A stretch of 53,996 nt of DNA from Candidatus Nealsoniibacteriota bacterium. GTDB lineage: Bacteria; Patescibacteriota; Minisyncoccia; Minisyncoccales; PWPS01. The stretch spans positions 1-53,996 of the forward strand of contig PUNQ01000040.1 in assembly GCA_003551845.1 (NCBI GenBank). Direction: 5' to 3'. Shown one piece after another: positions 6,810 through 37,931 of the stretch. Position 1 is the stretch's first letter. Every line of letters begins with the position of its first letter. The notes beneath the pieces are model-generated. The model saw only the letters and a program-made list of their open reading frames with translations, was not told where the DNA came from and did no database searches. The position numbers and the translations under genes were made by a program.

Positions 6810-6883
6810 GCCCCCGTAGCTCAACCGGATAGAGCGTCCGGCTTCGGACCGGAAGGTTGAGGGTTCGAATCCTTCCGGGGGTA
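6810..6883 (+). tRNA. tRNA-Arg (anticodon TCG)
   Basis: Cloverleaf: acceptor GCCCCCG/CGGGGGT, anticodon stem TCCGG-CTTCGGA-CCGGA, T-loop TTCGAAT. Confidence 0.92.
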
Positions 6884-6922
6884 CAAACTTTATTTTTTCA
6901 AAAAATATTTTATAATTGGGAA

Positions 6923-17515: not shown

Positions 17516-18442
17516 TCAATTCATAGTCATTCCTCTTTGCATGTGCGAAAAGGGATTGCTCACTCCTCTCGTTTCAAAATGAAGATGACAGCCCGTAGAA
17601 AGGCCCGTATTTCCCATGGTTCCTATCTGCTGCCCGCCACTTACCGTCTCCCCCGATGAAACGTAAATATCCTGCAAATGGGCGTACAAGGCCTCAAAAT
17701 TACCATAATCTATCCAAATGTAATTGCCGGCCGGCCAGCTTCCGTATCCGGTTCTTGAAACGGTTCCCGAACTACCGGAGTAAATCGGAGTTCCGCAGTT
17801 ATTGGCGATATCCACCGCGTTGGCATGGCCCGGATGGTCTCCTTGGGTTACCGTCCCGTGTGTTACCGCCGCAAATCCGGTATAAGTAGTTGTCGGCGCT
17901 CTTTGCGGAACCGGTTCTGCGGGCTTTTCTCCGTCGGGGATAATGAGTTGGTCACCCGGAACTATTCCCGTTTCGTCTTCAATATCGTTAAAGGCGATAA
18001 TATCTTCTCCACTCGCCTTGTGTTTTTCCGCTATATGGCTAAGCGTATCACCCTTTTCCACATAATATAAAACTCCCGTAGTCGGAAGAATCAAAAGATC
18101 ATCACCGGGATTTACTCCGTTAGTAATACTGTTGGCCCACTTGATGGTATCGACACTTATATCGAATCTGTCGGCAATCGAATTCAGACTGTCTCCTTTT
18201 TCAACCTGATAAGATATTATTCTTTCTCTTTCATTTCTCTCTTCCGTTCTCACCGCCAAAACCTGTTCCGAACGGAAAGTGGAGGGTGATTTGGCCAAAA
18301 TGCTGCTTCCGTCCATGAAAGAAAAGCCACGCACATCACCGTTATCAATGTTTTTAGCACTTAAAAATAGGTTGTTATCCGGAATTACGTATTCGTCCGC
18401 TTCACTCGCTTGGCCCCATAATGTAAAAGTCCATACAATCAA
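17516..18442 (-). CDS. Secreted LysM(x2)-M23 peptidoglycan endopeptidase; true 5' end probably upstream of 18442 (see findings)
   Basis: Two LysM (YQVEKGDSLNSIADRFDISVDTIKWANSI; YYVEKGDTLSHIAEKHKASGEDIIAFNDI) and M23 motifs (GHANAVDIANNCGTPIYSG; GNTGLSTGCHLHFET). Confidence 0.85.
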   Translation of the reverse strand: MIVWTFTLWGQASEADEYVIPDNNLFLSAKNIDNGDVRGFSFMDGSSILAKSPSTFRSEQVLAVRTEERNERERIISYQVEKGDSLNSIADRFDISVDTIKWANSITNGVNPGDDLLILPTTGVLYYVEKGDTLSHIAEKHKASGEDIIAFNDIEDETGIVPGDQLIIPDGEKPAEPVPQRAPTTTYTGFAAVTHGTVTQGDHPGHANAVDIANNCGTPIYSGSSGTVSRTGYGSWPAGNYIWIDYGNFEALYAHLQDIYVSSGETVSGGQQIGTMGNTGLSTGCHLHFETRGVSNPFSHMQRGMTMN

Positions 18443-18668: not shown

Positions 18669-19499
18669 ATGGAACTAACTTCCAAAAAAACGGTTAAAAA
18701 AATCCTGAATGAAAAAGGTGGCTCTCTTAAACGATTGGGGCAAAACTTTCTCATAAATGAAAATACCTTGGATCAAATGACGAAAGCGAGCCGATTGAAT
18801 TTTCAAGATGAGGTCTTGGAAATAGGGCCCGGCCTGGGAGCCTTGACCGAAAAACTGGCACATAACTCAAAAAAAGTAATAGCCGTGGAAAAGGATGATC
18901 GCTTTATTTCTCATTTGAGATCATTTTTTTCTTCTTCTTCAAATGTCCGAATTTTAAATCGAGACATATTATCTTTTTCTCCGAAAGATTTTTTTAAAAA
19001 TGATTATAAGATAATATCAAACCTCCCTTACAACATAGCCGTTCCGACAATAAGAAAATTCATAAATATCCGCGGCCCTTCCGTAATGGTGTTTATAATC
19101 CAAAAGGACGTTGCTTACAGAATAGCTGCAGAAAAAAAGCACAGCTTTCTTTCCGTGTTGGTTCATCTCAGAAGCACTCCCGAAATCGTCTGCACTGTTT
19201 CCAAAAGTTCTTTTTGGCCCGTTCCCGATGTCGAGGGAGCGATAATTAAACTGACTCCGCATCAAAAATATCCCGATGAAAAAAATTTCAATGAAAATTT
19301 TTTTAATGTCGTCGAAACGGGCTTCCGGCATCCCAGAAAACAGATAAAAAATAACTTATCGACTTTTGAGAGCTTTTCCAAAAAGGATATAGAAGATTTT
19401 TTAACCCGAGCAGAGGTCAATCCCAAAGACAGACCCGAAGACCTGACTGTCGAGCAATGGATAAAAATCGCCTCCTTGTTTGACTTTAAAAAAGGATAA
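18669..19499 (+). CDS. rsmA: 16S rRNA (adenine(1518)-N(6)/adenine(1519)-N(6))-dimethyltransferase
   Basis: LKRLGQNFLINENTLDQM; VLEIGPGLGALTEKLA; ISNLPYNIAVPTIRKFI. Confidence 0.95.
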   Translation: MELTSKKTVKKILNEKGGSLKRLGQNFLINENTLDQMTKASRLNFQDEVLEIGPGLGALTEKLAHNSKKVIAVEKDDRFISHLRSFFSSSSNVRILNRDILSFSPKDFFKNDYKIISNLPYNIAVPTIRKFINIRGPSVMVFIIQKDVAYRIAAEKKHSFLSVLVHLRSTPEIVCTVSKSSFWPVPDVEGAIIKLTPHQKYPDEKNFNENFFNVVETGFRHPRKQIKNNLSTFESFSKKDIEDFLTRAEVNPKDRPEDLTVEQWIKIASLFDFKKG

Positions 19500-19516: not shown

Positions 19517-22363
19517 ATGTCGTTTTATCAATCCAAATATTTTAATGCTTCGGCTTTCGTAATTATTTTTCTTTTTTTAATTTTTACACTGAAGCCGATT
19601 CAAGCTCAAGAAGGCCCGGAAATAAGAGTTTTTACTGATGAAGAGGAGTCCGTTTCTCTCTCCGGAGAATGGAGGGCCGACGGACACGGAGACTGGATAT
19701 TCGTCGGAGAAGGTGAGGGTGGGCAAGATTTAATCATGAAAGAAACGAGAGCGGCAAGTCACTTTTTCGGGAGGGAAGGAGAAAAAGAGATTATTCTTCA
19801 CCCTTACCAGGACAATAGATTGAGCAGGATAATTTTTCCCCGTCAAAATCTTATCAGAAACATCCCTGAAGGTCCGGCTGAATTGGAAGATTTTTTCCGT
19901 TTTGACTTGAGTAAAAATAAGATGGGCGTACTCAGAATATCGGAGGAAGAATTCGATCAATTGTCGGAAGAAGAAATCAGAGAAAGACTTGAAGAAGGAA
20001 TGATTCCGGAATATATAACTGACTTTGAGGATTTGAGAAGATTTTATCTTCATGAAAACAACTTCTGGGGTCCGTTCCCCGACGGGATTGAGAACTTGGA
20101 AGAGCTGGAATATCTCTTTTTGGATAATAATCACCTCCAAACGGTTGAAATGGACGGCGTCTCCATACCGGGCATCCCCCCCGGTCTTACCGAATTGGAC
20201 AGGCTTCAAGAGCTCCGGTTGCATGATAATGAATTATCCACTTTCATATACGGAGAATTTACTCCCGGTTTTTTGGAAAGACTCCGAATTTTAACTCTAA
20301 AAAACAATCACATCTCCTCAAGACCTCAAGAAGAATTTCACCACCTGGAAACCGTAAATGTTTTGAATTTAAAAAATAACCGAATTCCTTACTTTTTCAA
20401 TGCCGAAGACATAAGGCTGGACAGCCTGGAATATTTGAATCTTTCTCACAACAGATTGGGGGCTTATGAGCCGTATATTAATCTTGATGAGCCACTTCTT
20501 CCTCAAATCGGTGATCTGGAAAGCTTACAAGAGCTAAATGACTATCATTTTCGCAGAGTCTGGCATCCCAAGCAGCTCCTAATCGACTTGAGATATAACG
20601 ATTATTGGGGAGCGGTCCCCGAAGAAATAGGGAACTTGGAAGGATTGGAAGCATTGCACTTGGACGGAAACAGATTTACCGGAGAGATTCCCGAAGAAGT
20701 GGAGAATTTCGGAGAATACGATGAAATAGACGGTGAGCCTTTTATGCCCTTTACCATCTTTTCGGCTTACGGCAATCATTTTACTGAAGAAATACCGGAA
20801 GAACTGGGAGTCGGAAGCTTGGACTATTTAAAACAATTAAGACTTCACAATAACTTTTTTACCGGGGAGATTCCTCAAGAAGTTTTAAATCTTTCTCAAA
20901 AGGATATAAACGAACCGCTCTATACTCTCAATCTTTCCCATAATCGTCTGGAAAGCCTTGAAGAACCGGCCGATTCTACCGCCAGAATGTTCTTTCTGGA
21001 TAGAAATGATTTTGAAGACTTGCCCGAAAATGTCAGAGCCGGAGAAGTAAAAGTTTTATCCCTGGAAGAAAATTTGCTTGAAGGCTTGCCGGAAAACTTT
21101 GGTGACAATTTCGCAAATGCCAAAGAGCTGTCTCTTTTTAAAAATCCGGATATAGATGAACTGCCGGATAGTTTTGAAGCTCTGCAAAACCTTTATTTTC
21201 TCGATTTGGGAACCCTTCAACTCGATGAATTTCCCATCGAGGTCACTGAGCTTATAAATCTTGAATACTTGAACTTAGCCAGACAAACCACGGACAAAAT
21301 AACTTGGCCGGGAGAAATAATGGAAAATGAAATTCCGGAAGAGATAGATCAGTTAGTGAATTTGGAAACCTTTTTGATTGAAAATAATTTAATAGATGAG
21401 CTTCCCGAAGACGCCTGGAGTAGTCTTCAAAATTTGCGCTTTTTTTACGGTCACCATAATGAAATAGATAACTTACCGGAGAGCATGGGAGATATGCAAA
21501 ATATAGAAAGAATCTATCTTAATGAAAACAAAATAGAAGAAGAAATTCCGGACAATCTGACCAGAACGAGCCAGCTCAGAAGAATATTTTTACAATACAA
21601 CAGTCCGGACGGGCGTCAAACCGACGGCCGTGGCGGCATTATCGGAGAATTGCCGACCAATCACGCTTGGGGGCAACTGGAATACTTTTTAGCCGACACC
21701 AATGAGATAACGGGAGGCATCCCCGAAAGATTCGTAAGTAATCTCCCCCAATTGGAATGGTTCAGTATGTATAGAAACAAGCTGGATGGAGAGATAGATC
21801 CGGCAATCGGAAATATGGAGAGTTTGGAGTGGTGGGATATAGCTTTAAGTGAAGACTCTTCCAACGACGGAGCGGGATCGGCAGGTGGTCTCATAGGAGA
21901 TATTCCTCCGACGATCGGTAACTTGGAAGATCTGGAAGTTTTCAACTTCAACAACAATCAAATAGAGTTGGTTCCCGACGAGATAAACAATCTCGACAAT
22001 TTGATGATCTTGCACGGCTTTGAAAATATGGTTGAAGAGTTCGCAGAAGACATAGGGGGTATGGATGAACTTTGCCAATTGGATTTTCACAATTCCGAAT
22101 ACGGTGGTAATTGGGTTGAGCAATGGCCCGACGGAGTGGAAGATTTGCCCAATTGGGTCTACTTCAGCTTCGGAGAAAATGAAGTCATGGAAGGAACGGT
22201 TCCTTGGGATGATTGGCTGGGAAATTATCCGGATCATGCCATATGGGTAAACAATAATCAACTGGAGGGAGCTTTCGTCGACGGCATGGCCGAAGAAACA
22301 AGGGATATGGTCTTTTTCAACGCCCGAGATAATGATTTCGACGGCAATTTACCGGCCAACTAA
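19517..22363 (+). CDS. Secreted leucine-rich-repeat protein (948 aa)
   Basis: Signal peptide FVIIFLFLIFTLKPIQAQ; many LRRs such as LEALHLDGNRFTGEIPEEV, LEYLNLSHNRLG, LRFFYGHHNEIDNLPESM. Confidence 0.85.
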   Translation: MSFYQSKYFNASAFVIIFLFLIFTLKPIQAQEGPEIRVFTDEEESVSLSGEWRADGHGDWIFVGEGEGGQDLIMKETRAASHFFGREGEKEIILHPYQDNRLSRIIFPRQNLIRNIPEGPAELEDFFRFDLSKNKMGVLRISEEEFDQLSEEEIRERLEEGMIPEYITDFEDLRRFYLHENNFWGPFPDGIENLEELEYLFLDNNHLQTVEMDGVSIPGIPPGLTELDRLQELRLHDNELSTFIYGEFTPGFLERLRILTLKNNHISSRPQEEFHHLETVNVLNLKNNRIPYFFNAEDIRLDSLEYLNLSHNRLGAYEPYINLDEPLLPQIGDLESLQELNDYHFRRVWHPKQLLIDLRYNDYWGAVPEEIGNLEGLEALHLDGNRFTGEIPEEVENFGEYDEIDGEPFMPFTIFSAYGNHFTEEIPEELGVGSLDYLKQLRLHNNFFTGEIPQEVLNLSQKDINEPLYTLNLSHNRLESLEEPADSTARMFFLDRNDFEDLPENVRAGEVKVLSLEENLLEGLPENFGDNFANAKELSLFKNPDIDELPDSFEALQNLYFLDLGTLQLDEFPIEVTELINLEYLNLARQTTDKITWPGEIMENEIPEEIDQLVNLETFLIENNLIDELPEDAWSSLQNLRFFYGHHNEIDNLPESMGDMQNIERIYLNENKIEEEIPDNLTRTSQLRRIFLQYNSPDGRQTDGRGGIIGELPTNHAWGQLEYFLADTNEITGGIPERFVSNLPQLEWFSMYRNKLDGEIDPAIGNMESLEWWDIALSEDSSNDGAGSAGGLIGDIPPTIGNLEDLEVFNFNNNQIELVPDEINNLDNLMILHGFENMVEEFAEDIGGMDELCQLDFHNSEYGGNWVEQWPDGVEDLPNWVYFSFGENEVMEGTVPWDDWLGNYPDHAIWVNNNQLEGAFVDGMAEETRDMVFFNARDNDFDGNLPAN

Positions 22364-22368
22364 GTTTT

Positions 22369-25300
22369 ATGAATATTAATTCAGATTCAATCAAAAAAAT
22401 ATTATTGATTCTCTCGGTGGCGGCAATAGCCGTTTTTGCTGTTTTCGTTTTAACCGATTTCGATTATTCTTTTTTAACCGCCGATTTAAGTGTTGATGAG
22501 CCCGATGATCCGGAAACGGCGGAAATCGCTCCTCTTTCGGGTGGGGGCACTTTACCACCACCACGAAGCTATTCACAGGAGTTCAATCCGGGTCAATACC
22601 TGACTTATCCGAGCCACCCGGAAGAATTACCCTTTTTCAGAAGATGGGGAGATGAATTCGGAGACCCATCAAAACACTCCGGACAATCCCTGAAAGTCTT
22701 GACTTATGTCGACGGAATACATGTCCCCGGAGCCCAAATAAATCAGGTCAACGTGGATGATATAGAGAGCATTCCTCCCGGGGGAATGGGAGGCTTAACA
22801 CCCTATTATACCGATTGGATGCAGACGGAAATAAAAGATGTCTTTTTGGAAGCTCCCGAAGAGCACGGTGGAGGAAGATTCGTCGGTTGGTCCGGTTGTG
22901 ACGCTCCCGGAGAATTGGATAAAGAGCCCTCTTGTCAGGAGCAAACCGTAGAGGAGCTTCGTTGTCAGGTATCAATAACCAACAAACAAACCAGAAGAAT
23001 AGAAGCTCACTATATGATATCCGAACCCGTATTACCTCTCCAGCTTTGGAGTGTAAGCAATAATGAACTAACCGGTGGAATTCCTCCCACGATTTGGGAA
23101 ATCTTGGAGCCTCAAATCGCTTTCAAGTCCGCCAACCAGGCCGACGGACACCTTCAGGGAGGTATTCCGGACACGATTGCCGAGTTACCCTCTCTGCAAC
23201 TGAATATAGGAAGAAACTACTTGGATGGCGAAATTCCGGAAGCGACAGGTGATATGGAAAATATAGAGTGGCTCGGCTTTTATCTTAACCGGCTCACCGG
23301 AGAAATTCCGGCCGCTCTGGGAAATTTGGGAGATACTCTGCGATACCTGCTTCTTTATGATCAGGTAGGAAAAGGAGGCGGCTTAACGGGAACACTTCCC
23401 AGAGAGCTGGGAGATTTAACTAAATTGGTCCGCTTTGAAATTCACGACAATTTTCTGGAAGGTATTATTCCCAAAGAATTAGCCGATATCAGTTTACTTA
23501 TTCCTTCCGAAATGAGATTTTTCAATAACAGATTTGAAGGAGCGGAAGAAGGACTTATGTCCGATTCGGTTTGGGAAGGGGTTAATTTCAATACCAATCG
23601 AATCGGCCAACAAGCCGGTGAAGACATTCTTTGGGATGCGGCTGAAAGAAGCGGAACCTATATAGATCTTTGCAACAATGACGTAATCGGCGGGCGCGTA
23701 GATTATGAGATAGGTGGCGGATGTAAAGATACGGGCATCATCGATGCCGTTAACGCAGCCGTAGAAGCCGGTTGGGACGTATACATACCTATAGAACTGT
23801 ATCAAGATTACGAATGGTGGGACGGATGTAGCAGTGCTACATGTCAAATAGAGTATGATGACGAGACGGGAGAACCGATAGGTGCCAGTAAAGGAGGTTG
23901 CAGTCCTCAGCAGTCAAGCAATCAAAAACCCTATTGCGAAGGCCGTGCCGAATGTGTAAGAGTGGAAGAGCCGATCGAAACTTGTGATGATATCGCTTCC
24001 AATTCGGAAGGTCTTCCGGAGGAAGTCAAGCACGCTTCAAATTGCCCCGGTTGTGATTATTGGAAGCACGACGAATGTGAACCCAGGTGTGAATTCGAGG
24101 GACAATGCACACAAAATACAGATACTCTCGAATGTGATGAAAGTTACCCTTACGATGGAAGAGATGAAATTGAACCCACCGAGGAAGATCCTCCCAAAAG
24201 TGAAGATTGTATGGATGTTCATAGATACTATGAAGTTCCTCCTCCTTCAGTCAACGCACCATCTTCTTCCGGTAATCGCGACATGATCGACCCCGCAGAA
24301 GAAATTCCGATACCCGTCAATAAGTTGAACGTACCTCTCGACCCTTGCCCCAACCCGCCCAGAGAACCTCGCTTCGTTTACAGAGAAAAGGTAATTCACG
24401 AAGAACGTCAATTCAGACCGGAACACACCGGTTGCGGAGGAGATATACTGGTCAGAAAGTGGCAAAGAGTGGTTATGCAGGCCGGATATTGTACTTCCGC
24501 GGAGTGCAGGGACCCGCAGTGGCTCGATCCCGAAGAGGGTGGCTACGTCCAAATTCACGAACGTTTCGTGCCCGGACCGGAAGGAAAAGTTTTCGAAGAG
24601 GTCGGAAGCTGGCAAAAAGCCTGGCCCTCCAGTGTCGAAGACGGTCACCCAAAACTCAGTGAAACCCACCCGCAAGGAAGAAATCAATGGAAGACGGAAA
24701 AACAGCTCAAGGATGAATTCGGGGAGCCGGTTCCTTTTCCCGTTTGTCAGAGTGATTGTGTTCAGCCACCGCCCGGAGTTCCCGATGAGATTGCCGAATT
24801 CAAGCAAGAAGATCCCTACTACTTCAACAATCCTTGGCTTCCGGAAATAGTGGGAGGAGAAAGATCCGACAATATAGAGCTTTTAAGAGAAAAAAATCTC
24901 TTGGCCGGAATGAGGTCCATTGAAGATTTGATGATTGAAAAAGACTATCTGGACACCGTTTCTTTACCGGTCAAATTATTCTGGTGGAACGTTCCCGGTT
25001 GGCACGAAGGATGGGTGGAAGACGGTGAAGACAGGTTCTGTGAAGGGCCGGAAGATATCGCCTGCGTTCATCATTACATAATACGTTTCGACAACATAAA
25101 CAGGGAGGACAGGCCGGCCGAGTTTCACCGGCATGAAGTAATCTACTGGCTGACCGAAGAACACGGTTTGGATTATAATGAAGCTCAAAATTTATATACA
25201 GAATTAAAACAGCAAAACCATCGAGCTTACGTAAACTGGAGAATAGAGGAAAAAGACAGGACGACCACCGACGTTATGCGCTATGACCGGGACAATATAG

Positions 25301-28300
25301 TAGGATGTGACGATTGCGGAGCCGAAAAAGAAATTTGGCTGGACACCAATACCTTCAACCCGCTGGAATTCGAGCCGGTTTACGAATACGACCGTCCACA
25401 CAGGGATTTCATGAAAGAGTGGCTCCTGGAAAGGTTCGAAAATCACGAACACAGCGAGGCTTTGGAAGAAATAATAGAAGAAGTTTATGACTCTTACGGC
25501 CGACCCGGATTTTTCCGCTCCGGCGCCGAGCATACCTACACCTTACAAGCCGCTTGTAAGCAGCACGACTTTTTGGAAGAAAACATGGACAGATGGGGAA
25601 TATATGAAGACGACAGACGTCTGAATCCCGAAGGTCACCACACTTCCGAAGACAAGGGTAGATGGGGATATGAGGGTTCTTTCTCTTCCCAAGCCAGTGA
25701 CGCACCGGAGCTGATCTCGCCCATAGACCCCAATTGGGTATCTCCCTACGATCCTTTGGAATATGACCCCTATCATGACTACAGCCGCCTGAGAGCGGAC
25801 GCATACGATTATCCGGACGGATACAGATACCCGGCGGAGCTTTACGGCTTACGTGAAGACTATGATCCGGACGATCCGAGTGCCGGACCTCCGGTTGTCG
25901 GTCCTCCCGATACGGGCCCTACCGTACCACCGGAAGATCCACCAACGGATACCGACCCGGAAACGGGCATTACGGAGGGACCTCCGGTTGAAGACAGCAA
26001 CAACCCGGGAATGGAGTGTAGTACGAGTGGATTAGGAAGAACGGATCCGCCTTCGGAAGAAGTTAAGGATATTGCCGGGGTAGACGGCAGAAATCACGGA
26101 GAGGTTTATGAAAACTGGCTTAAAAGTCAAGAAGTGAACTCTACTGTTGCTAACAGAATAGCTTGGGCCGGAGGAAGTTGTCATACCATTCCTCCTCTGT
26201 TCGAAGAAGGCGATCACCTTCATTGTTGGAGAAAAATGCTTTCAACTGCAGATGTCTTGGAAGATCTTCATGTCGGTGGTGAGGCGGATGGATTTATCGT
26301 TACTTCCGCTTATAGAGATTTGGCATGCAATAATGCGGTTGGAAGCACGGCATCAACCAGTTATCACATGAGAAACATGGCTACCGACATTCAAAGCACC
26401 CGGGGAGGGCTCCGTGGTCCGAACAAGGATCTTTATTGGCATCTTGATGCCATTCTTCCTTCCGGAACCGGTCGTTTGGAGTATTATCCGCCAGCTCCGG
26501 GCAGGGGCGCATTCGTACATATCGATACCAGATCGGGAGGATGGAGATCGCATATTAACAATGAACAAAGCCCCATTTACGAAGAAGAAAACCCTCTATT
26601 AAGCTTGGAAGATAACAATTTTTCTTCCCGGTTCAGTCACAGTCAAATTTTGGATGGCGAAAAATCACAAGTCTTGGGCGAATCGGTCTCGGGAACTCAA
26701 ATAAATCCGAACGCATACATGAAAGAAGAGTACGACCTTCAAGAATGGCTTGATGAGCAAGATAATCCTTTCAAGCTTTGGGATCAGGCTTACCCTTTCC
26801 AAAACTTGGTTCTGCAAGATCAAGTCCCCTTCAGAGAAGAGTTGAGATGGATTCAGCAATGGTATCACTTGAGACCGGAAAGAAGACCCGTTCCCGCCTC
26901 GACTTATCAATTAAAATTCGGGTCCGGTTTCAGAGTTAATCTGGAAACGATCTCCAGATTCGGCCAGCCGGTACTTGAAACCTGCCACCCTCAATTTGTC
27001 GATTCTTTTCACGTCGACTTGGGAGAAGAAGAGCTGGTAGACTTACCGGTCTGTATCTATAAAAGAAGGGTGACCGAAGGTCATGAAACTCAACACATTT
27101 ATCCGGAACCCAATTTGCGTGACAGCGAAATGGAATTTTTCACTCTTCCACAAGAAGAAGAGGTTGATATATACTCTTGGAATGTAGCTACCTGCCGGGA
27201 TTCGGGTCAGACCGACTGCACCGATTTCAGTCAGATGTGGAGACTTCAACTGGATGAAAGAGAAGATCCTCAATTTTTCCCTCCCAGAAATGATGAAGAC
27301 GTAATTAAAAACATGAGAAATCCCTGGGTTGACGAAGACGACGCCACAATGGGCTTTCCTTTACGAGTGGCCTGGGAAAGACGCTTCGGAGCCAGAAGCT
27401 ACGTCTACAGAATAGCGAGAGAAGGAGTGGACTGGGAAAGCGATCCCTACGAAGCCATGGATGCCGAAATATTGAGAGGACACTTCGTCAGATACGAAAT
27501 AGATGAGCTCGACGAAGACGGCTTATTCGACCTGGATGAAGAATATGTTTGGGATATAAAAGCTTGCAGAGACGACCATATAGAACATGACAAAGAAACT
27601 CCCCGAGACATACTCGAGTGGGCCGATGAGCATAAAGAGTGTACCGACTGGAGATCCGAAACACACGACGACGCTCCCTTCGAATTCAAGACTACCGGCA
27701 GAGCCCCGACGGAGCTCTACAGCCCGGAACCGATAGGTCTTCTCCAAAGAGCTTCTTATCCTCTTAGATTCGATTGGGAAGAAGTTCCCGGAGCCAAATC
27801 CTACGCCATAAGAATTTATGATCCCGATCTTTCACCCGGATTCGATCCCTTTCCCGGATGGGAATTCGACTTGGTTCACGAGGGTATTTTGGCAATCGTT
27901 CCCGAATCCGAATTTTTCTACTACCGAGAGATATTGCTCAATGAAGAATACGATTATGAAATTTACACCTGTGCCGACAAAGTTCCCGACATTGAATACT
28001 GGTTTTTAACTCAAAGCTGGGAAGAGAGAAAAGAAGACCTTCATTGCGGAGATGAGAGTCTGAACGGAATAATTACCCCCACTCTGTTCGGACCTCCCAA
28101 TCTTTCTCCGGGTGGATCTCCGGAAAGACCGGTGCAACTCCCGATGGAAGAGTCGATCCAGACGATAACCTGGAGCAGTCTCGAAGAGGTCGACTACTAT
28201 TGGATAAACATAGAAAAAGTTGACGAACCCACATCTTTGACTCAAAAAGCTTATGCTCAAAATGAAGAATTTCCGAAAATAGTCGACACCAACAGTTTCG

Positions 28301-28827
28301 TATATGATTTTCCGGAAATCGGAACTTATGAAATAGAGGTAAAGGGATGTCTTATGGTGGAAGACGGTGAATGCTTGGACGGTGCACTCGGTTGGTCGGT
28401 TCCAAAAGAGCATTACACTCCCGGGGTAGAAAACAGACCCAGATACGTTGAATTGGTTTACGACGTCCAAAAGGGAGGAATCGTTCCTTGTGGCAGGGAG
28501 ACCAATATATTTTCACCGGAAGAGCCCGTAGACAGCAGAGACGACTGTCGTCCCGTCCACTTCTTTGTTTTCATCGGTCTCTTCATTGAAGAAATCTTGG
28601 TGAAAATTCTGATTCCCTATTCTCTGATAATTCTTCTCATCTATACCGGCTATCTTTACTACACCGGATTGGGAAAGCCGGAAACCATGAAAAGAGTCTT
28701 CAAAATTTGGAATTATGCCCTCAAGGGATATCTACTGATATTTTTAGCTTGGTTCATTATCGGTATATTTTTAACAATGATCGGTTATCAATTCGGAGTC
28801 TGGTGGCAAATTACCATTAACTTGTAA
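22369..28827 (+). CDS. Giant multidomain surface protein (2152 aa): N-terminal TM/signal, InlB-repeat-like, LRRs, Cys-rich region, M15-type peptidase domain, Fn3-like repeats, C-terminal pilin-like double TM
   Basis: LRRs LTGEIPAALGNL, LTGTLPRELGDL; M15-type motifs IVTSAYRDLACNNAVG...SYHMRNMATDI...FVHIDTR; Fn3-like LRFDWEEVPGAKSYAIRIYDP; C-terminal FVFIGLFIEEILVKILIPYSLIILLIYTGYLYYTGLGKPETMKRVFKIWNYALKGYLLIFLAWFIIGIFL. Confidence 0.75.
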   Translation: MNINSDSIKKILLILSVAAIAVFAVFVLTDFDYSFLTADLSVDEPDDPETAEIAPLSGGGTLPPPRSYSQEFNPGQYLTYPSHPEELPFFRRWGDEFGDPSKHSGQSLKVLTYVDGIHVPGAQINQVNVDDIESIPPGGMGGLTPYYTDWMQTEIKDVFLEAPEEHGGGRFVGWSGCDAPGELDKEPSCQEQTVEELRCQVSITNKQTRRIEAHYMISEPVLPLQLWSVSNNELTGGIPPTIWEILEPQIAFKSANQADGHLQGGIPDTIAELPSLQLNIGRNYLDGEIPEATGDMENIEWLGFYLNRLTGEIPAALGNLGDTLRYLLLYDQVGKGGGLTGTLPRELGDLTKLVRFEIHDNFLEGIIPKELADISLLIPSEMRFFNNRFEGAEEGLMSDSVWEGVNFNTNRIGQQAGEDILWDAAERSGTYIDLCNNDVIGGRVDYEIGGGCKDTGIIDAVNAAVEAGWDVYIPIELYQDYEWWDGCSSATCQIEYDDETGEPIGASKGGCSPQQSSNQKPYCEGRAECVRVEEPIETCDDIASNSEGLPEEVKHASNCPGCDYWKHDECEPRCEFEGQCTQNTDTLECDESYPYDGRDEIEPTEEDPPKSEDCMDVHRYYEVPPPSVNAPSSSGNRDMIDPAEEIPIPVNKLNVPLDPCPNPPREPRFVYREKVIHEERQFRPEHTGCGGDILVRKWQRVVMQAGYCTSAECRDPQWLDPEEGGYVQIHERFVPGPEGKVFEEVGSWQKAWPSSVEDGHPKLSETHPQGRNQWKTEKQLKDEFGEPVPFPVCQSDCVQPPPGVPDEIAEFKQEDPYYFNNPWLPEIVGGERSDNIELLREKNLLAGMRSIEDLMIEKDYLDTVSLPVKLFWWNVPGWHEGWVEDGEDRFCEGPEDIACVHHYIIRFDNINREDRPAEFHRHEVIYWLTEEHGLDYNEAQNLYTELKQQNHRAYVNWRIEEKDRTTTDVMRYDRDNIVGCDDCGAEKEIWLDTNTFNPLEFEPVYEYDRPHRDFMKEWLLERFENHEHSEALEEIIEEVYDSYGRPGFFRSGAEHTYTLQAACKQHDFLEENMDRWGIYEDDRRLNPEGHHTSEDKGRWGYEGSFSSQASDAPELISPIDPNWVSPYDPLEYDPYHDYSRLRADAYDYPDGYRYPAELYGLREDYDPDDPSAGPPVVGPPDTGPTVPPEDPPTDTDPETGITEGPPVEDSNNPGMECSTSGLGRTDPPSEEVKDIAGVDGRNHGEVYENWLKSQEVNSTVANRIAWAGGSCHTIPPLFEEGDHLHCWRKMLSTADVLEDLHVGGEADGFIVTSAYRDLACNNAVGSTASTSYHMRNMATDIQSTRGGLRGPNKDLYWHLDAILPSGTGRLEYYPPAPGRGAFVHIDTRSGGWRSHINNEQSPIYEEENPLLSLEDNNFSSRFSHSQILDGEKSQVLGESVSGTQINPNAYMKEEYDLQEWLDEQDNPFKLWDQAYPFQNLVLQDQVPFREELRWIQQWYHLRPERRPVPASTYQLKFGSGFRVNLETISRFGQPVLETCHPQFVDSFHVDLGEEELVDLPVCIYKRRVTEGHETQHIYPEPNLRDSEMEFFTLPQEEEVDIYSWNVATCRDSGQTDCTDFSQMWRLQLDEREDPQFFPPRNDEDVIKNMRNPWVDEDDATMGFPLRVAWERRFGARSYVYRIAREGVDWESDPYEAMDAEILRGHFVRYEIDELDEDGLFDLDEEYVWDIKACRDDHIEHDKETPRDILEWADEHKECTDWRSETHDDAPFEFKTTGRAPTELYSPEPIGLLQRASYPLRFDWEEVPGAKSYAIRIYDPDLSPGFDPFPGWEFDLVHEGILAIVPESEFFYYREILLNEEYDYEIYTCADKVPDIEYWFLTQSWEERKEDLHCGDESLNGIITPTLFGPPNLSPGGSPERPVQLPMEESIQTITWSSLEEVDYYWINIEKVDEPTSLTQKAYAQNEEFPKIVDTNSFVYDFPEIGTYEIEVKGCLMVEDGECLDGALGWSVPKEHYTPGVENRPRYVELVYDVQKGGIVPCGRETNIFSPEEPVDSRDDCRPVHFFVFIGLFIEEILVKILIPYSLIILLIYTGYLYYTGLGKPETMKRVFKIWNYALKGYLLIFLAWFIIGIFLTMIGYQFGVWWQITINL

Positions 28828-28831
28828 ACAT

Positions 28832-29662
28832 ATGAAAAAGGATAAGCAGGAAAAGCAAAATGGAAAGGAAACCGTCTTCTACTTGGCTATAATCGCAATC
28901 GTTATTTTGGTTTTGGGTGTTCGCATATTTTCACAAGGCAGGAGGATGAGTGATTCCATCGATAGGATTCAAGAAGAAGGGATGGATATAGATTATGAAG
29001 AAGAAGAGCCCGGCTTTTTTGATATTGAAACCCAGCAAAATGACGAAGCCGGTTTTGATAAAAGCTACATCTCTGCGGACGGAAAATTAAGCTTCGATTA
29101 TCCTTCGGATTGGCAAAAAACGGATAATGACGAAATATTGGACCTTTTCAGAGGACTTGACGGCTATCAGTTGCCGGATGATTTCGAGCAAGAGATATCC
29201 GAAATCGATGATTTGGAAGACATCGACCCGGAAGAATTTGCATTTTCCGAACCGGGAAGAGAAGACCACCAAGACCTCTTCTCGGAAATGGATATTGATT
29301 TTATGGCTATAAAAACGACCTTTCCCAATCTTTCCATTGGTATTATTTCGGTTCAAGAGGTACACTTTGACGAAGAAAAAACTTCCGAAACCCTCGCTGA
29401 GACTCTAATTTCCGACCTGGAGCATGAAGACCGGGATACTAAAGTGGAAATATCGGATGTCGAAACCGGAGAATATTATGTCAGAATGAATACTTTAACC
29501 TACACTCAAAATCGCCCCGCTTTCAGGTCAAAAAATCTGGCTCTTATCGGAGAAGATAAAAAAGTTTACATAATTAATTTCAACTCCGATTATAGCGGCT
29601 GGAACGAATTTGAAAATGAATTCAACAGAATAATATCGTCCATAGATTTCGATGGTCGTTAA
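28832..29662 (+). CDS. Membrane-anchored protein with a possible PsbP/Mog1-like lipid-free domain
   Basis: N-terminal TM TVFYLAIIAIVILVLGVRIF; ISADGKLSFDYPSDWQKTDND... and C-terminal KKVYIINFNSDYSGWNEFENEFNRIISSIDF resemble PsbP-like folds. Confidence 0.45.
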   Translation: MKKDKQEKQNGKETVFYLAIIAIVILVLGVRIFSQGRRMSDSIDRIQEEGMDIDYEEEEPGFFDIETQQNDEAGFDKSYISADGKLSFDYPSDWQKTDNDEILDLFRGLDGYQLPDDFEQEISEIDDLEDIDPEEFAFSEPGREDHQDLFSEMDIDFMAIKTTFPNLSIGIISVQEVHFDEEKTSETLAETLISDLEHEDRDTKVEISDVETGEYYVRMNTLTYTQNRPAFRSKNLALIGEDKKVYIINFNSDYSGWNEFENEFNRIISSIDFDGR

Positions 29663-31040
29663 TTTTTTAAAATATCTCTTTTTATCTCTTTTTATTCTTC
29701 TTTTCGGAACGAAGGAGGTTTTTGCGGGTCAAATTCCCTTGGAGATAAACTGGCCCACTTCACCGACGGGGATTTCCCTGGAGGGGGCGACTTTGGCCGA
29801 ATTGACCGCTTATTTTTTCGAATGGGGTATTTTGATCGGAGTAATTTTGGCTTTCGGAATACTTCTTTATGCCAGTTTTTCATATATAACCACATCCGGA
29901 AATGAAGTAAAGCTGAGCAAAGCCAAACAGATGCTGCAATCCGCCTTTTTGGGTCTTTTGCTTCTTCTCGGATCTTGGATTATGATCATTGTTTTAAATC
30001 CGGAATTGACCGTCATTACCGAGGTGGGAGTGTCAAGCCCTTTCTACGACGGAGCCTTTCGCATGGACGCTTTTGAAGAAAAAGACCCCTGTGATTATGC
30101 CATAATCTCCTATACGATAAGAGGTTTGGACGATAAAACAAGACACACCATGATAGAGGTCGGCGACATAACCACCCTGACTCAAAGACAAAGACATGAT
30201 GAAAGAGACTTATCGATGGATCCCTTTTTCGGAGTCGCCTGTCAGGACGGGGGAGAAATAGAAGAACACGACTATGAAGAAGATGTTAGATTCATAGAGG
30301 CGAGAGTGGTAGCCGACAACCAGCAACTTACCCCGGTATGTAATATGGGCTGTGCTCAAGACCCGGGAGAAGAATGCGACTCGGAGATGTTTATTGAAAG
30401 AGAATTCAATATGCCCAAATATTGCTATGACTACAGAACCTTTTATCATCCGGGAGACCCTCGTTTTCCCGGTTATGAGACCACCGGAAGCGTCAAATAC
30501 ATATCACAAAAAAAAGGTCCCATAGAACTAACTTGCCTTGAAGGAGATGTAGCTTTGGATCATGAACAGGGCTGTGCTTTGAATTTGTATGCCGGCAGAT
30601 TCGCCGGCCGCTGTGGAGACATGATAGGCTCACCCGGGATAATGGGTAGCTCTCCTTCCGAGGGCTGGGACAGAAATGTCAATTGTATGGGAGTTACGGT
30701 TCATGAACCCGGGGTGGCCATGCCCAAATTCGATCTCACCGTAATAAATGATTGGCCGGAAGGATCACAAAGCCCGGAGATCCGAATCGTCGAAGACGGA
30801 TCTCGAGTCGGAATCGTAGAGAGAGGAGAAACGAAGACATTCAAAAGGCTCCCTTTCCGTGCCGATTTGGTGGTTGACGTCGCATTGGAAGAAGGTGACG
30901 GTTACGCCCTTTTAACCGACTCCAACATGGTCGGCAAACATTGCGACAGTCGTGCCGAGCTTTCCGACGGAAAAAGACTGAGGTGTGAATTCGAGCTAAT
31001 TCAAAATTTGGAAATAACTCTTGAAAAAAAAGAGTATTAA
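29652..31040 (+). CDS. VirB2/TrbC-pilin-like N-terminal module with a Cys-containing extracellular domain (462 aa)
   Basis: Signal peptide then LTAYFFEWGILIGVILAFGILLYASFSYITTSGNEVKLSKAKQMLQSAFLGLLLLLGSWIMIIVLNPEL. Confidence 0.65.
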   Translation: MVVNFLKYLFLSLFILLFGTKEVFAGQIPLEINWPTSPTGISLEGATLAELTAYFFEWGILIGVILAFGILLYASFSYITTSGNEVKLSKAKQMLQSAFLGLLLLLGSWIMIIVLNPELTVITEVGVSSPFYDGAFRMDAFEEKDPCDYAIISYTIRGLDDKTRHTMIEVGDITTLTQRQRHDERDLSMDPFFGVACQDGGEIEEHDYEEDVRFIEARVVADNQQLTPVCNMGCAQDPGEECDSEMFIEREFNMPKYCYDYRTFYHPGDPRFPGYETTGSVKYISQKKGPIELTCLEGDVALDHEQGCALNLYAGRFAGRCGDMIGSPGIMGSSPSEGWDRNVNCMGVTVHEPGVAMPKFDLTVINDWPEGSQSPEIRIVEDGSRVGIVERGETKTFKRLPFRADLVVDVALEEGDGYALLTDSNMVGKHCDSRAELSDGKRLRCEFELIQNLEITLEKKEY

Positions 31041-31079: not shown

Positions 31080-32789
31080 ATGAATAAATTCGTAAAGAAA
31101 ACTCGACTATTCATATTTTCCCTTTTATTTTTCTTTCTTGTTTCTCTGCAGGTTGCCGCAGAAGGGCTGGAAATAGATTGGCCGGATTCACCCATGAACA
31201 CTTCTTTGGAAATGGGTTCCGGGGTGGCGGAATTGGTCAAATACCTTTACGAATGGGGTATAGCGATAGGAATTATCATCTTTTTCGGAGTCCTTATCTT
31301 TGCCGGATTTGAATTTATTACTTCCGCGGGTTATCCGGACAGACGCAATTCCGCAAAAAAAAGAGTCGTTTCCGGTTTTGCCGGGGTTCTTTTGCTCTTG
31401 GGTTCTTTTCTCCTTTTAAATACGATTAATCCCGAATTGACCACAATAAGAGAGGTGGAGCTCAGAGAAGAAGGTGCCGGATTTCACGAATTTCAATCCG
31501 GAATGGTCGATGATGAAAAAATGTGTGAGTTCGCCTTCATAACGGTTCAGGAAGACGATATTGATACGAGAACGACCCATTTTGCAATTCCCGGAATGGC
31601 GATTAAAACTGAAGAAGTGTTGCCGATGCACAGTTACGCCTGTGTTCCGGAAAGAAATGAAAATCAGGTGCTCGAAGTCAGGAGAAATGAAGACGAGGGA
31701 TATTACAAATTGGTAAGAAGACAGACCGGAAGAGAGGTTAGTCAAGATGACTTTTCAAATTATGAGAGAGTTTATTACCGTGATCAGGATAGTGGTGAAG
31801 AGTTCGACCTGGAGGACGATTATCAAGATGATTTGAATCAGCTTTACGCCATGCGCTATGAGCATATGGGGGATATAAATATAGACGTAGATACACAAGA
31901 ACAACGTGACCTGTTTGCCTTCTGGCTTTCCGCCCGTGAAAGAGGGCTTTACAACACATTTGCTCCGGGAATATGTAGTGATGGTCTTGAGGGTGATGAC
32001 GATGTCGGAATGATTGAAAACCCGGACTTCGAAAGAATTAGATGTCTGGAACTTGATATTGAAGAAGGCGGGGACGGAAGTATAACCGGAGTTACGGTTG
32101 AAGAATGGAGAAAAAGAGGTTATGCGAGCCTGAACAAGGCTTGGGAAGCAATAGGAGAAAAAACGAGCGAAGAGTTGGATGAAGACAGCACCTGTCCCAC
32201 CGCTGAAGAAATGGGAGCGGAGGATGGCTCCAGGCTGGGCTACAGAAGAGATTCGACCGGGGGGGGATGTCCTTTGGCCTTTTATGACGGAACGGAGGTT
32301 GAATACAGATACGTATTTTTCGGAAGAGAAGAGGTTCCGATATGTGAAAAACAGATCTCCAGACCGGCCGCGGATATGGATCACTTTGATGCCATAGTCG
32401 ACAGAGAATCAAATTGCATGGAACTCATAAGGCACGAGCCCGCCCTGGGAGTCGATCCTTCTTCCTACACCCATAGAGTCACTTTGGACAGAAGCGTTGC
32501 CGGCTCGGGTGAGGGGATTATATATTTCTGCAGAGGCGGAGTTAGAGATAATTGTAAAGAAGGATCTTCTTCATTGATGAGAACGCTCAGAGATCCCGAT
32601 CAAGAAGATAGCTTCAATGTGGTTCCCGACCGTTACACAATCTCAATAGCCCCGGCAGGATATAGACATCCCGATGGAAACTTTTGGCATTACGAGTTCG
32701 CTTATCCCGAAGAATGTGAAGGGAAGACAGAGTGCGTCGGAAGAATAAGAAGAGATATGGAATTTATAATCAGAGAAAAAGTAAATTAA
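31080..32789 (+). CDS. VirB2/TrbC-pilin-like N-terminal module with an extracellular domain (569 aa), paralogue of the preceding gene
   Basis: AELVKYLYEWGIAIGIIIFFGVLIFAGFEFITSAGYPDRRNSAKKRVVSGFAGVLLLLGSFLLLNTINPEL aligns by eye with the 29652 ORF. Confidence 0.65.
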   Translation: MNKFVKKTRLFIFSLLFFFLVSLQVAAEGLEIDWPDSPMNTSLEMGSGVAELVKYLYEWGIAIGIIIFFGVLIFAGFEFITSAGYPDRRNSAKKRVVSGFAGVLLLLGSFLLLNTINPELTTIREVELREEGAGFHEFQSGMVDDEKMCEFAFITVQEDDIDTRTTHFAIPGMAIKTEEVLPMHSYACVPERNENQVLEVRRNEDEGYYKLVRRQTGREVSQDDFSNYERVYYRDQDSGEEFDLEDDYQDDLNQLYAMRYEHMGDINIDVDTQEQRDLFAFWLSARERGLYNTFAPGICSDGLEGDDDVGMIENPDFERIRCLELDIEEGGDGSITGVTVEEWRKRGYASLNKAWEAIGEKTSEELDEDSTCPTAEEMGAEDGSRLGYRRDSTGGGCPLAFYDGTEVEYRYVFFGREEVPICEKQISRPAADMDHFDAIVDRESNCMELIRHEPALGVDPSSYTHRVTLDRSVAGSGEGIIYFCRGGVRDNCKEGSSSLMRTLRDPDQEDSFNVVPDRYTISIAPAGYRHPDGNFWHYEFAYPEECEGKTECVGRIRRDMEFIIREKVN

Positions 32790-32790
32790 A

Positions 32791-35064
32791 ATGTATAATT
32801 TTTTAAAAAAGATAAGTAAAAATATATTCCAAAGCCTTTCAGGAGTCGTAACCAAAAAGACTTTTCTTCTTTTTTGTCTTCTCTTTTTAATCATTCCCCT
32901 CTTTTCCGAAGCACTGATCGGAACCGGTATCTTCGACTTTTTTACCGCCTCCTTGGAGGGTATTTCGGAATTGACCGGACCGTTTAAAGGGTTTTTTGTC
33001 GCTCTTTTCTATTTTCTTTTCATATCTATGGCCGCCCTTTATCTGGGTGTCCACCTTTTGGATATCGCCTCCGATCCGACAAATCTGCAAATAATGGAAA
33101 GTGAATTCGTTCAAATAGGATGGCAATTCACTTCCAGCCTGGCGAATACGGCAATAATAATCGCCCTGGTCGTAATCGGAATAGCCACCATACTGAATCG
33201 GGAAGACTACCACGCCAAAAAAACATTACCCAAGCTGATCATCGTTGCCTTGTTGGTGAACTTCAGCCTGGTGCTGGTCGGTATAGTCGTCGATATTTCT
33301 CATATAATCTTGAATACTTTTTACCGGGTTGACTTGGGGGCGGAACTAACCAGCTCCATTTTTACGGTTGCCCAAGATCAAATAACTCAATTTACCGCCT
33401 TTTTCACGGTAACTATAGTGGCTCTCGCCGTTCCGTTTACCGCTCCTTTAAAACAGGTCGCCTTCACCATTTTAATGTTCGGAGTTTTTCTGCCCCAGAT
33501 AATTACCGCTATTTTAACTATCTTTACCAGTATTGTTTTGGGTTCGATAATATACCTTTACACTCTCCTTTTTTATGCCAGAACGTTCATAATTCAAATT
33601 TTGGCCATCCTCTCTCCCTTGGCTTTTGTCGCCTGGGTCTTGCCGAGTACCGAATCTCTTTTTAAAAAGTGGTGGAATGCTCTGGTGGGCTGGTCCTTTT
33701 TGGGTGTCGCTCTTTTCTTTTTCCTCCTTTTGTCAACAATCGCCGTCGCTCCTTTTCGTCCCGATACGCCACCCGACATCTTTGAATACGGAAGCATCGG
33801 CACTATCTTTGTCTATTATTTGACCTTGTCCGTATTTTTGGGTATCGCCGGACTGCTTTCAAAAAGAATGATGCCCGCCGGAGCCAAAGCTATAATTGAC
33901 GGAGTAAAATCAACCGCCACCGGCTTCAAAAAAGTCGCCGCCCCCCAAGCCAAGGCGATGAGAAAAGATTTCAGCGACAAAATGGCACTCGGATCAACTC
34001 AAGAGAATATAGAGGAATTACAAAGGCAATATGACAGTGCCGGCATGCTCGGAAAATTACGGTATGGAGCCGAGCTGAACGCCGCCAAGGGAGGAAGATT
34101 CGTAAGTAGAGATATCGCCGGAAAATCTCCCGAAGCGATCGCATCACAATCCGATATCGCCAAAAAGAGTAAGTCATTAACTAAGGACGCCACCAATGAG
34201 GAACTTGAAAGGATGTCAAAAAATGAGCGCAAAACACCATATGAAAGAAGGGAGGCGGAAAAAGAGCTTTACAAGAGAGCCGGCACCGGAAAATATAAAA
34301 TGTCCGACGAAGAAAAAGAAAGGGCCAAAGACAGGTTCGGCAATCTGGATGAAGGTACACAAAAAATGATGTTGAAAGAAATGAGCAATAAAGAGCTAAA
34401 GAGTAGCGTTTCGGATTTCTCCGGAACATCCGCCCAATTGAAGGCAATAGAAACTTTGATGAGAAGATTCGTTAAGGGAGACGTCTCTCTTGATTCGACC
34501 ACCAGAAAAGCGATCGCCGAAAATCAATCCCGCCTTGACGGAGACGTCCTTAGATCGGCTATAAATGTCGATCCCACACTTAATATAGATTTGGCAGAAA
34601 ATGAAACCGAGGGAAGATCAAAGATGGTTAGAGACATTGAAAACAGATCGGCTTCGCAATTGTCAAAGATAAACCTGAGTCAAGCCAAGTCGGAAGAGGA
34701 CAAGGCCACAATAGCCAGACTGATGATTCAAAATCCGGCCGGAATGGAATCAATCAGTGAAAAAAGTTCTACGCACCAAAAGAGAGCCTTGTTGGAAGGA
34801 GTTGATAACCTAAAAAATATAAGTAAGGACCCGAGATCATACAACGAAACTTTTAAAGACGTCGAAGGTGTCGGAGAGATAAATGAAGAAACTTATAAAA
34901 AGACGGTTGAAGCTCTAAGAGGTGTCGTTGTCAAAAATAAAGAAAATTGGCATGAAGGCATAGTCAAAGTTATTGAAAAAGAAGCCGATAATTTATCGGA
35001 ATCCGAAAATGATTCCCGGTCCGATCATGCGGGTACCGGACAACCCGGTATGGGTACTATTTAA
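32791..35064 (+). CDS. VirB6/TrbL-like multi-TM T4SS protein with a long charged C-terminal tail
   Basis: About 7-8 TMs including YLYTLLFYARTFIIQILAILSPLAFVAWVLPSTESLFKKWWNALVGWSFLGVALFFFLLLS; about 390-aa hydrophilic tail. Confidence 0.65.
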   Translation: MYNFLKKISKNIFQSLSGVVTKKTFLLFCLLFLIIPLFSEALIGTGIFDFFTASLEGISELTGPFKGFFVALFYFLFISMAALYLGVHLLDIASDPTNLQIMESEFVQIGWQFTSSLANTAIIIALVVIGIATILNREDYHAKKTLPKLIIVALLVNFSLVLVGIVVDISHIILNTFYRVDLGAELTSSIFTVAQDQITQFTAFFTVTIVALAVPFTAPLKQVAFTILMFGVFLPQIITAILTIFTSIVLGSIIYLYTLLFYARTFIIQILAILSPLAFVAWVLPSTESLFKKWWNALVGWSFLGVALFFFLLLSTIAVAPFRPDTPPDIFEYGSIGTIFVYYLTLSVFLGIAGLLSKRMMPAGAKAIIDGVKSTATGFKKVAAPQAKAMRKDFSDKMALGSTQENIEELQRQYDSAGMLGKLRYGAELNAAKGGRFVSRDIAGKSPEAIASQSDIAKKSKSLTKDATNEELERMSKNERKTPYERREAEKELYKRAGTGKYKMSDEEKERAKDRFGNLDEGTQKMMLKEMSNKELKSSVSDFSGTSAQLKAIETLMRRFVKGDVSLDSTTRKAIAENQSRLDGDVLRSAINVDPTLNIDLAENETEGRSKMVRDIENRSASQLSKINLSQAKSEEDKATIARLMIQNPAGMESISEKSSTHQKRALLEGVDNLKNISKDPRSYNETFKDVEGVGEINEETYKKTVEALRGVVVKNKENWHEGIVKVIEKEADNLSESENDSRSDHAGTGQPGMGTI

Positions 35065-36768: not shown

Positions 36769-36916
36769 CCGGAATTCTCCTTTCTTCTTATTTCCTTATT
36801 TTTATGTTAATGAACTCTTCCTTTTATTTATAATAAAATAATTTAATGATATTGTCAACCCTTTTACCCTCTCTTTTTTTATGATAAAATGAGTGTACGA
36901 TTCATCCAAGCTCATC

Positions 36917-37327
36917 ATGAAGTTCAAAATACCACGCTATATAGACTATGAGGCTAAAATATTCGGTCCGGCCAGCTTCAAGCAGTTTCTCGTTCTTCTG
37001 GGCGGGATGGCGACCATAGGTTTTCTTTTCGTGGTTATAGAAAGTTTTTTGGGCTTTGTTTTTTCCGCAATGGTTATCGGGGGGCTCGTCTTAACGATAA
37101 CTTTCGGAAAAATAGATGAGCAACCCCTGGTTTCTCTAATCGGTAAATATATAACCTTCAGATTATCCGGAACCAAAACTTATTTTTGGGAAAAGAAAGA
37201 AGTTTACCCGAAGGCGATCAAAATGAAGGAGATGAAAGATGTCGATGATGAGAAAGAAACCAAGTACGAAGTATCGAGAAAAACGGGTAGATTGGATAAA
37301 ATGTCTAAAAATATAGAGCTTTCTTAA
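36917..37327 (+). CDS. PrgI family protein (T4SS-associated)
   Basis: MKFKIPRYIDYEAKIFGPASFKQFLVLLGGM...LVSLIGKYITFRLSGTKTYFWEKKEV; start refined from 36893. Confidence 0.75.
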   Translation: MKFKIPRYIDYEAKIFGPASFKQFLVLLGGMATIGFLFVVIESFLGFVFSAMVIGGLVLTITFGKIDEQPLVSLIGKYITFRLSGTKTYFWEKKEVYPKAIKMKEMKDVDDEKETKYEVSRKTGRLDKMSKNIELS

Positions 37328-37328
37328 T

Positions 37329-37931
37329 ATGAAAAAACAAAGCACTCAAAGCTTTTTGGAAATCAGTCAAATAAGGGAAGGAACCTTAATTCTTAAAAAC
37401 AGATCTTTGCGAGCAATTCTCATGGTTTCTTCGGTAAATTTAGCTCTTAAATCAACCGAAGAGCAAACGGCGATAATAAATCAATTTCAACTCTTTCTAA
37501 ATTCCCTGGATTTTACCTGTCAGATAGTCGTTCAATCCAGAAAGGCGAATTTAACCGGATACATTGATATGATAAGGGGTTGGGAAAAAAAACAAGAAAG
37601 CGAATTATTAAAGCATCAGACCAGAAGTTATATAGAATTCATAGAAAATTTCGTCAGAGAAGAAACCATTTTGACCAAAAGATTCTTCATAGTGGTTCCT
37701 TACAATTTTTATGAAACTCCCACTTCCGAATTAACCGAAGAAAATTTTAATAGGTTGAGAAAACAATTAATGGAAAGAATGCAGTTTGTGGCTCTCGGTC
37801 TCAGGCGCTGTGGTCTTCAAGCCGCGCCCTTGTCCAGCTCGGAGCTGGTAGAGCTCTTTTGGATGCTTCACCATCCGAAAGAGGCGGAAACGGGCTATTA
37901 TCCCGAATTTCCTCAAGAATTAATAAATTGA
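37329..37931 (+). CDS. TraC-like/VirB4 N-terminal-like domain protein (200 aa)
   Basis: FLEISQIREGTLILKNRSLRAILMVSSVNLALKSTEEQTAIINQFQLFLNSLDFTCQIVVQSRKANLTGYID; directly upstream of the VirB4-like ATPase. Confidence 0.65.
   Translation: MKKQSTQSFLEISQIREGTLILKNRSLRAILMVSSVNLALKSTEEQTAIINQFQLFLNSLDFTCQIVVQSRKANLTGYIDMIRGWEKKQESELLKHQTRSYIEFIENFVREETILTKRFFIVVPYNFYETPTSELTEENFNRLRKQLMERMQFVALGLRRCGLQAAPLSSSELVELFWMLHHPKEAETGYYPEFPQELIN

Follow-up and report, generated by a model that had tools for sequence, protein, structure and literature searches.

A pilin-family protein with a putative M15 peptidase domain and a leucine-rich-repeat half in a type IV secretion locus of a Candidatus Nealsoniibacteriota bacterium

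We analysed a 53,996-nucleotide stretch of Candidatus Nealsoniibacteriota DNA (contig PUNQ01000040.1, forward strand, assembly GCA_003551845.1; hereafter the window). Its genome comprises 864 kb, and the window belongs to a close relative of the Candidatus Nealsonbacteria metagenome-assembled genomes T1Sed10_186 and CSSed10_436R1. An open reading frame (ORF) at 22369-28827 runs unbroken from an ATG start over 2152 amino acids (aa), and homologues of it were found in 48 of 60 relatives. The domain parse supported the initial annotation, in which an adhesin-like head, a Cys-rich segment, an M15 murein peptidase, and a pilin-like anchor were joined in this one frame. We propose, with a probability of roughly 0.55, that the product is a hydrolase tethered to a type IV secretion system (T4SS), VirB1-like in function and bearing an adhesive head, which would act on murein at a contact site. 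Judged from sequence, the parts of this proposal that are supported by comparison are the family, the locus, the conservation of the zinc ligands, the repeated attachment of hydrolases, and the gene fusion.

The C-terminal hairpin (residues 2063-2142) links the protein to the pilins of the locus. A search with the C-terminal ~117 residues gave matches at E<=1e-5 in 232 of the order's 246 genomes, ordinary short pilins included, and in a phylum sample strong hairpin-family matches on long frames were nearly restricted to this order. The window protein was aligned with 52 long relatives (420-1481 aa), most of them from the same locus slot. In the common layout, a signal peptide and a Cys-rich segment are followed by Fn3-like repeats, about five in number and carrying paired cysteines, and a GLVPCGR motif precedes the two terminal transmembrane (TM) helices; short T4SS pilins have this layout minus the ectodomain. 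When the window ORF was searched alone with Pfam, M15_3 and T4SS_pilin fell below their cut-offs (PF18895 scored E 1.9e-3 on the hairpin) and leucine-rich repeats (LRRs) were weak. Profile-profile comparison of the hairpin family with the short T4SS pilins using hhalign gave 99.9% and E 1e-31, ruling out a generic anchor at the C-terminus. By this comparison the hairpin is a member of the Patescibacteria T4SS-pilin family (PF18895), in line with the likeness to the VirB2/TrbC loop noticed at the outset. The size of the protein argues against a role as the major pilin. An 837-aa protein of another genome (G045, L049:6446-8956) shows the reverse layout, with a pilin-type hairpin near the N-terminus and a long C-terminal extension.

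The Fn3 assignment was made because Pfam matches occur in the relatives (fn3 in 4 and Ig_Rha78A_N in 15 of the 53 aligned proteins) and because Foldseek matched the predicted C-terminal region, a weak model (pLDDT 50.6) used for this call only, to fibronectin Fn3 7-10 (E 1.3e-5, probability 1.0). Such repeats had been proposed by the initial annotation, which counted at least three; there are approximately five, with the M15 domain placed in the linker that joins repeats 1 and 2. No pilins with Fn3 repeats in Patescibacteria were found in literature searches.

The window copy of Peptidase_M15_3 scored E 2e-4 and 21.9 bits against a gathering cut-off of 23.2 bits in hmmscan, and 26.8 bits, above the cut-off, in the genome search. 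Same-genus homologues were clearly above it (E 2.3e-13, 5e-11, and 3.7e-6), which bears out the M15-type zinc peptidase signature first read from the window sequence. The conservation check suggested with that reading was carried out on four aligned proteins, in which H1333-x6-D1340, H1384, SAYR, N, and HxDTR were invariant. Neither of the two outcomes named at the outset as refuting that reading, unconserved zinc ligands or a generic C-terminal anchor, was thus observed. PF13539 (M15_4) had no match in the genome, and the domain fits M15_3. Against solved structures, the best sequence match of the M15 profile was 1LBU, a Zn muramoyl-pentapeptide carboxypeptidase, with an E of 0.06 that is not significant alone. 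Foldseek with the weak M15-region model ranked Hedgehog-domain structures first and 1LBU 25th (E 0.4), the best hits having E > 0.06; these top matches have the fold class that has been described for M15_3 (PMC3927764).

Two of the order's 246 genomes (G000 and G003) and 3 of the 288 genomes of a phylum sample had M15_3; therefore, the domain looks like a late acquisition inserted at genus level, and an ancient family component is ruled out. No M15 domain was present in the same-genus genome G001. Relative to the closest non-identical relative (L140), the ratio of nonsynonymous to synonymous substitution rates (dN/dS) was 0.05 for the hairpin, 0.06 for the region before M15, 0.11 for the Fn3 repeats, and 0.35 for the M15 domain, these values being rough since dS was near saturation in some regions. 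The domain thus appears constrained yet fast-evolving, a pattern compatible with a changing target as well as with relaxed use. Its fast evolution and the low Pfam score of the copy in the window would also suit a catalytically idle M15 domain, with which a plain adhesin would bind or recognise peptidoglycan. However, the invariance of the three zinc ligands and their flanking motif, a dN/dS below 1, and the presence of M23 and SLT on similar proteins of other lineages make an idle domain improbable.

Murein hydrolases on pilin-type proteins were also detected elsewhere, the cases reported here being a lower bound among the matches listed. In genus g4 of the same family, M23 lies inside Fn3 repeat 1 (E 3.4e-21 and 2e-16), whereas M15 follows that repeat in the linker, so that a single inherited insertion of M15 and M23 is ruled out by position. 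In the sister genus g2, M23 occurs in a hairpin-first pilin-type protein adjoining jag-yidC-dnaA; these proteins (820-1083 aa) consist of a pilin-type hairpin, M23, and a Cys-rich tail, and are paired with a second pilin-type gene. Between ksgA and virB6, genome G076 encodes a protein with hairpin, M23, and an SLT_3-like domain (L134:8878-10965; SLT_3 E 0.0027, below cut-off), and G171 one with hairpin and SLT_3 (L159:4724-6271). The pilin-type protein of G069 is directly preceded by a separate protein (L090:5273-6334) that is secreted, lysozyme-like (SLT_3), and Cys-rich at its N-terminus. The M15, M23, M23 plus SLT_3-like, and SLT_3 cases indicate, at the level of domain matches, that non-homologous murein hydrolases have been attached to pilin-type proteins of T4SS loci more than once. 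Across these lineages the attached hydrolase varies, while the separate M23 plus LysM gene beside the locus is constant.

M15 enzymes cleave peptidoglycan stem peptides, and T4SS hydrolases open murein. We picture a long member of the pilin family, belonging to the T4SS encoded on Patescibacteria chromosomes, that would have grown into a surface-exposed, membrane-tethered wall hydrolase. An export signal would deliver the chain outside the cell, and the PF18895-type hairpin would anchor it in the membrane beside the machine formed by VirB3, VirB4, and VirB6; the K/R-rich loop is predicted inside and the N-terminus and ectodomain outside. About four Fn3 repeats would form a stalk, above which the zinc domain may cleave stem-peptide bonds in peptidoglycan where the cells touch or the channel lies, while the LRR/InlB head would bind a partner surface or polymer. 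A VirB1-like function would in this way be supplied by an enzyme tethered to a pilin-type protein. We favour this T4SS-tethered hydrolase because the T4SS synteny is order-wide and the hairpin matches the pilins at E 1e-31, because M15_3 is above cut-off in homologues with invariant ligands, because non-homologous hydrolases are attached to pilin-type proteins elsewhere, and because the separate M23 plus LysM enzyme stays constant while the attached enzyme varies and M15 evolves fast. The contact-dependent wall remodelling put forward in the initial annotation is plausible and gains comparative support from the repeated hydrolase attachments; the activity and the target wall were conjectural there and are putative here.

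Several points weigh against the proposal. The enzymatic activity of the M15 domain is presumed, its fast evolution could reflect relaxed use, and the peptidase is optional, being absent from G001 and from most long relatives. VirB6 was assigned via position and TM pattern only, and confidence is low for both structure models, which were built on shallow alignments of 4-5 rows (pLDDT 56.5 and, for the C-terminal region, 50.6). In addition, a report places some Nealsonbacteria on methanogens (PMC10936435); a host of this kind, if the window's organism had one, would offer no ordinary murein target.

The M15 domain might instead open only the cell's own thin peptidoglycan for assembly of the T4SS or pilus, with the LRRs and Fn3 repeats as spacers. 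The known T4SS hydrolases VirB1 and PrgK work so (PMC12102498, PMC12857230), and a tethered enzyme meets its own wall first. However, a constant need would be expected for such a role, yet the attached enzyme differs among related genera and is often absent, a separate M23 plus LysM enzyme stays constant, and the M15 domain is placed above approximately four Fn3 repeats; a role confined to the own wall is therefore rather unlikely. As the target of a T4SS-tethered hydrolase, we somewhat favour the partner's wall over the own wall. A broader and more speculative idea, which we consider doubtful, is that the order runs a T4SS with exchangeable murein hydrolases (M15, M23, SLT), built into pilin-family proteins as a module directed at the partner's wall, such that the pilin-family protein itself opens the partner wall at contact.

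The first half of the protein comprises an InlB-like segment, LRRs, and a Cys-rich end. The InlB-like repeat of the initial annotation held as a motif (FVGWSGCD...AHY) and had no Pfam match within the ORF; a similar motif (FAGWSDCD...AHF) in the window protein at 6857-8434 scored PF18998 at 2.9e-8. A shuffle test of a motif pattern was not used as evidence, the pattern having been written from the sequence itself. The LRRs, weak in the window ORF (E 0.019), were confirmed by a clear score in the separate homologue L036 (5e-6). In all informative same-genus relatives (three contigs, two from G003 and one from G001), this half is a separate upstream gene of ~563-574 aa terminated by a stop, and the next gene has its own signal peptide. 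The window sequence has neither this stop nor the internal signal peptide at the junction, and the frame and the mature parts run on. Comparison with these contigs indicates that two genes were fused in the window with loss of the internal signal peptide. An assembly artefact uniting two adjacent genes would agree with the fused state being seen in one assembly only, with all three informative relatives having two genes, and with two close contigs (L031/L140 and L137) ending before the junction. A single base error is nevertheless insufficient to remove both stop and signal peptide and leave frame and mature parts intact, which makes an artefact very improbable; even then, the M15-Fn3-pilin half occurs independently in relatives. 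The G003 bin contains several divergent copies or pieces of the locus (L031, L032, L033, L034, L035, and L137), probably reflecting mixed strains, and one copy matches residues 1109-2152 of the window protein exactly.

As shown in Table 1, the gene lies in a locus with the order dksA-M23-ksgA-[this gene]-pilins-virB6-band7-prgI-trsD-virB4, with dnaA shortly beyond. The order dksA-ksgA-[long protein]-pilin-virB6-prgI-trsD-virB4 was repeated in most loci examined in the order, and the same T4SS locus has been surveyed previously (PMC12102498). The gene at 6857-8434 (+) encodes another member of the pilin family (PF18895 E 1.7e-9), in which the PF18998 match forms a C-terminal InlB-B-repeat-like domain; it precedes the NYN-pnp genes, a place occupied by short pilins in relatives. 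Its listed TTG start overlaps tRNA-Arg, and an ATG 22 codons on is probably the true start. The product of 12090-17033 (+) is a highly charged coiled-coil protein of 1647 aa that contains an SH3_3 domain; elsewhere in the order, several genomes have shorter relatives of it between pnp and dksA.

Table 1. Positions of the fused gene, its segments, neighbouring genes, and hairpin-M23 proteins of genus g2
Feature	Position	Strand	Details
Putative fusion of LRR protein and long T4SS pilin-family protein with M15 peptidase	22369..28827	+	2152 aa
N-terminal hydrophobic signal/anchor	22384..22467	+	residues 6-33
InlB-B-repeat-like segment	22681..23016	+	~residues 105-216; motif
LRRs	23050..23628	+	~residues 228-420
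Cys-rich end of LRR half	23671..24228	+	~residues 435-620; homologous gene stops here in relatives
Fusion junction lacking stop codon and second gene's signal peptide	24229..24339	+	residues 621-657
Cys-rich N-terminal segment of second half	24340..24948	+	
Fn3-like repeat 1 and genus-specific insert	24970..25788	+	~residues 868-1140
Peptidase M15 domain	26041..26553	+	~residues 1225-1395
M15 zinc ligands	26365-26367; 26386-26388; 26518-26520	+	H1333; D1340; H1384
Fn3-like repeats 2 to 5	26806..28458	+	~residues 1480-2030; paired cysteines
GIVPCGR motif and two-TM T4SS-pilin-family hairpin	28474..28824	+	residues 2036-2152; K/R-rich inter-TM loop
Separate LysM + M23 endopeptidase	17516..18442	-	between dksA and ksgA; retained in most loci of order
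ksgA (rRNA adenine dimethylase)	18669..19499	+	syntenic marker
Secreted LRR protein	19517..22363	+	948 aa; same genus only among loci examined
PsbP-like protein	28832..29662	+	one N-terminal hydrophobic segment
Pilin-type protein	29652..31040	+	signal peptide, two TMs, C-terminal ectodomain
Second pilin-type protein	31080..32789	+	layout as preceding protein
VirB6-like polytopic membrane protein	32791..35064	+	no Pfam match; TM pattern and position
PrgI (VirB3-like)	36893..37327	+	PF12666 just below cut-off
TrsD-like gene	37329-37931	+	no Pfam match; position and published locus
VirB4 ATPase	37944-39746	+	
g2 hairpin-M23 proteins	L130:212-3460; L131:3026-5914; L132:3-2780; L133:1987-4452		

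The T4SS locus, its pilins, and VirB1-like genes are already described. The VirB2-like pilins of Patescibacteria (PF18895; PMC12102498) share the hairpin family, the GLVPCG motif, and a locus with PrgI/TrsD/VirB4; they are ordinarily ~130-230 aa, whereas the window protein has ~2000 residues before the hairpin, including a peptidase and an LRR head. Like VirB1, PrgK of pCF10, and TraG of pIP501, it has a peptidoglycan hydrolase domain encoded with a monoderm-type T4SS. Those enzymes, however, are of the SLT, muramidase, LytM, or CHAP type, without a pilin-hairpin fusion in the sources. In the window protein, Pfam found M15 on a pilin-family protein as the sole hydrolase domain and neither the SLT/lysozyme-type nor the CHAP domain of VirB1-type hydrolases; it may work like VirB1 though not classed as one. 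The M15_3/DUF882 (YcbK-type) enzymes and the Zn D-Ala-D-Ala carboxypeptidase 1LBU have the same family profile and SxH-x6-D plus HxD ligand pattern, but are small soluble or periplasmic proteins, whereas the M15 domain here is a module of a tethered surface protein. PrgB-type conjugation adhesins are likewise large surface proteins encoded with a monoderm-type T4SS and with a proposed contact role; no homology to them was seen, and the window protein is anchored by a pilin hairpin. The survey in PMC12102498 describes no PrgB-like adhesin for Patescibacteria. No hydrolase-pilin fusion or M15-bearing pilin-family protein of such size was found described in the open-access papers searched, subscription papers and preprints lying outside the search. 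Within that search, the view in the initial annotation that no described family has this layout fits the exact layout. The scaffold, however, belongs to a family found across the order, in a T4SS locus that is already known (PMC12102498), and relatives encode the LRR half as a separate gene.

Attachment to and exchange with hosts form a central open question on Patescibacteria, and according to Wang et al. 2023, as cited in PMC12857230, their T4SS is essential in the only case that is genetically tractable. A pilin-family protein with a putative wall peptidase, together with varied hydrolases in several lineages, is a testable candidate for the wall-opening step. Such hydrolase-pilin fusions could also help to explain the scarcity of classical VirB1 genes near virB4 across most of the phylum.

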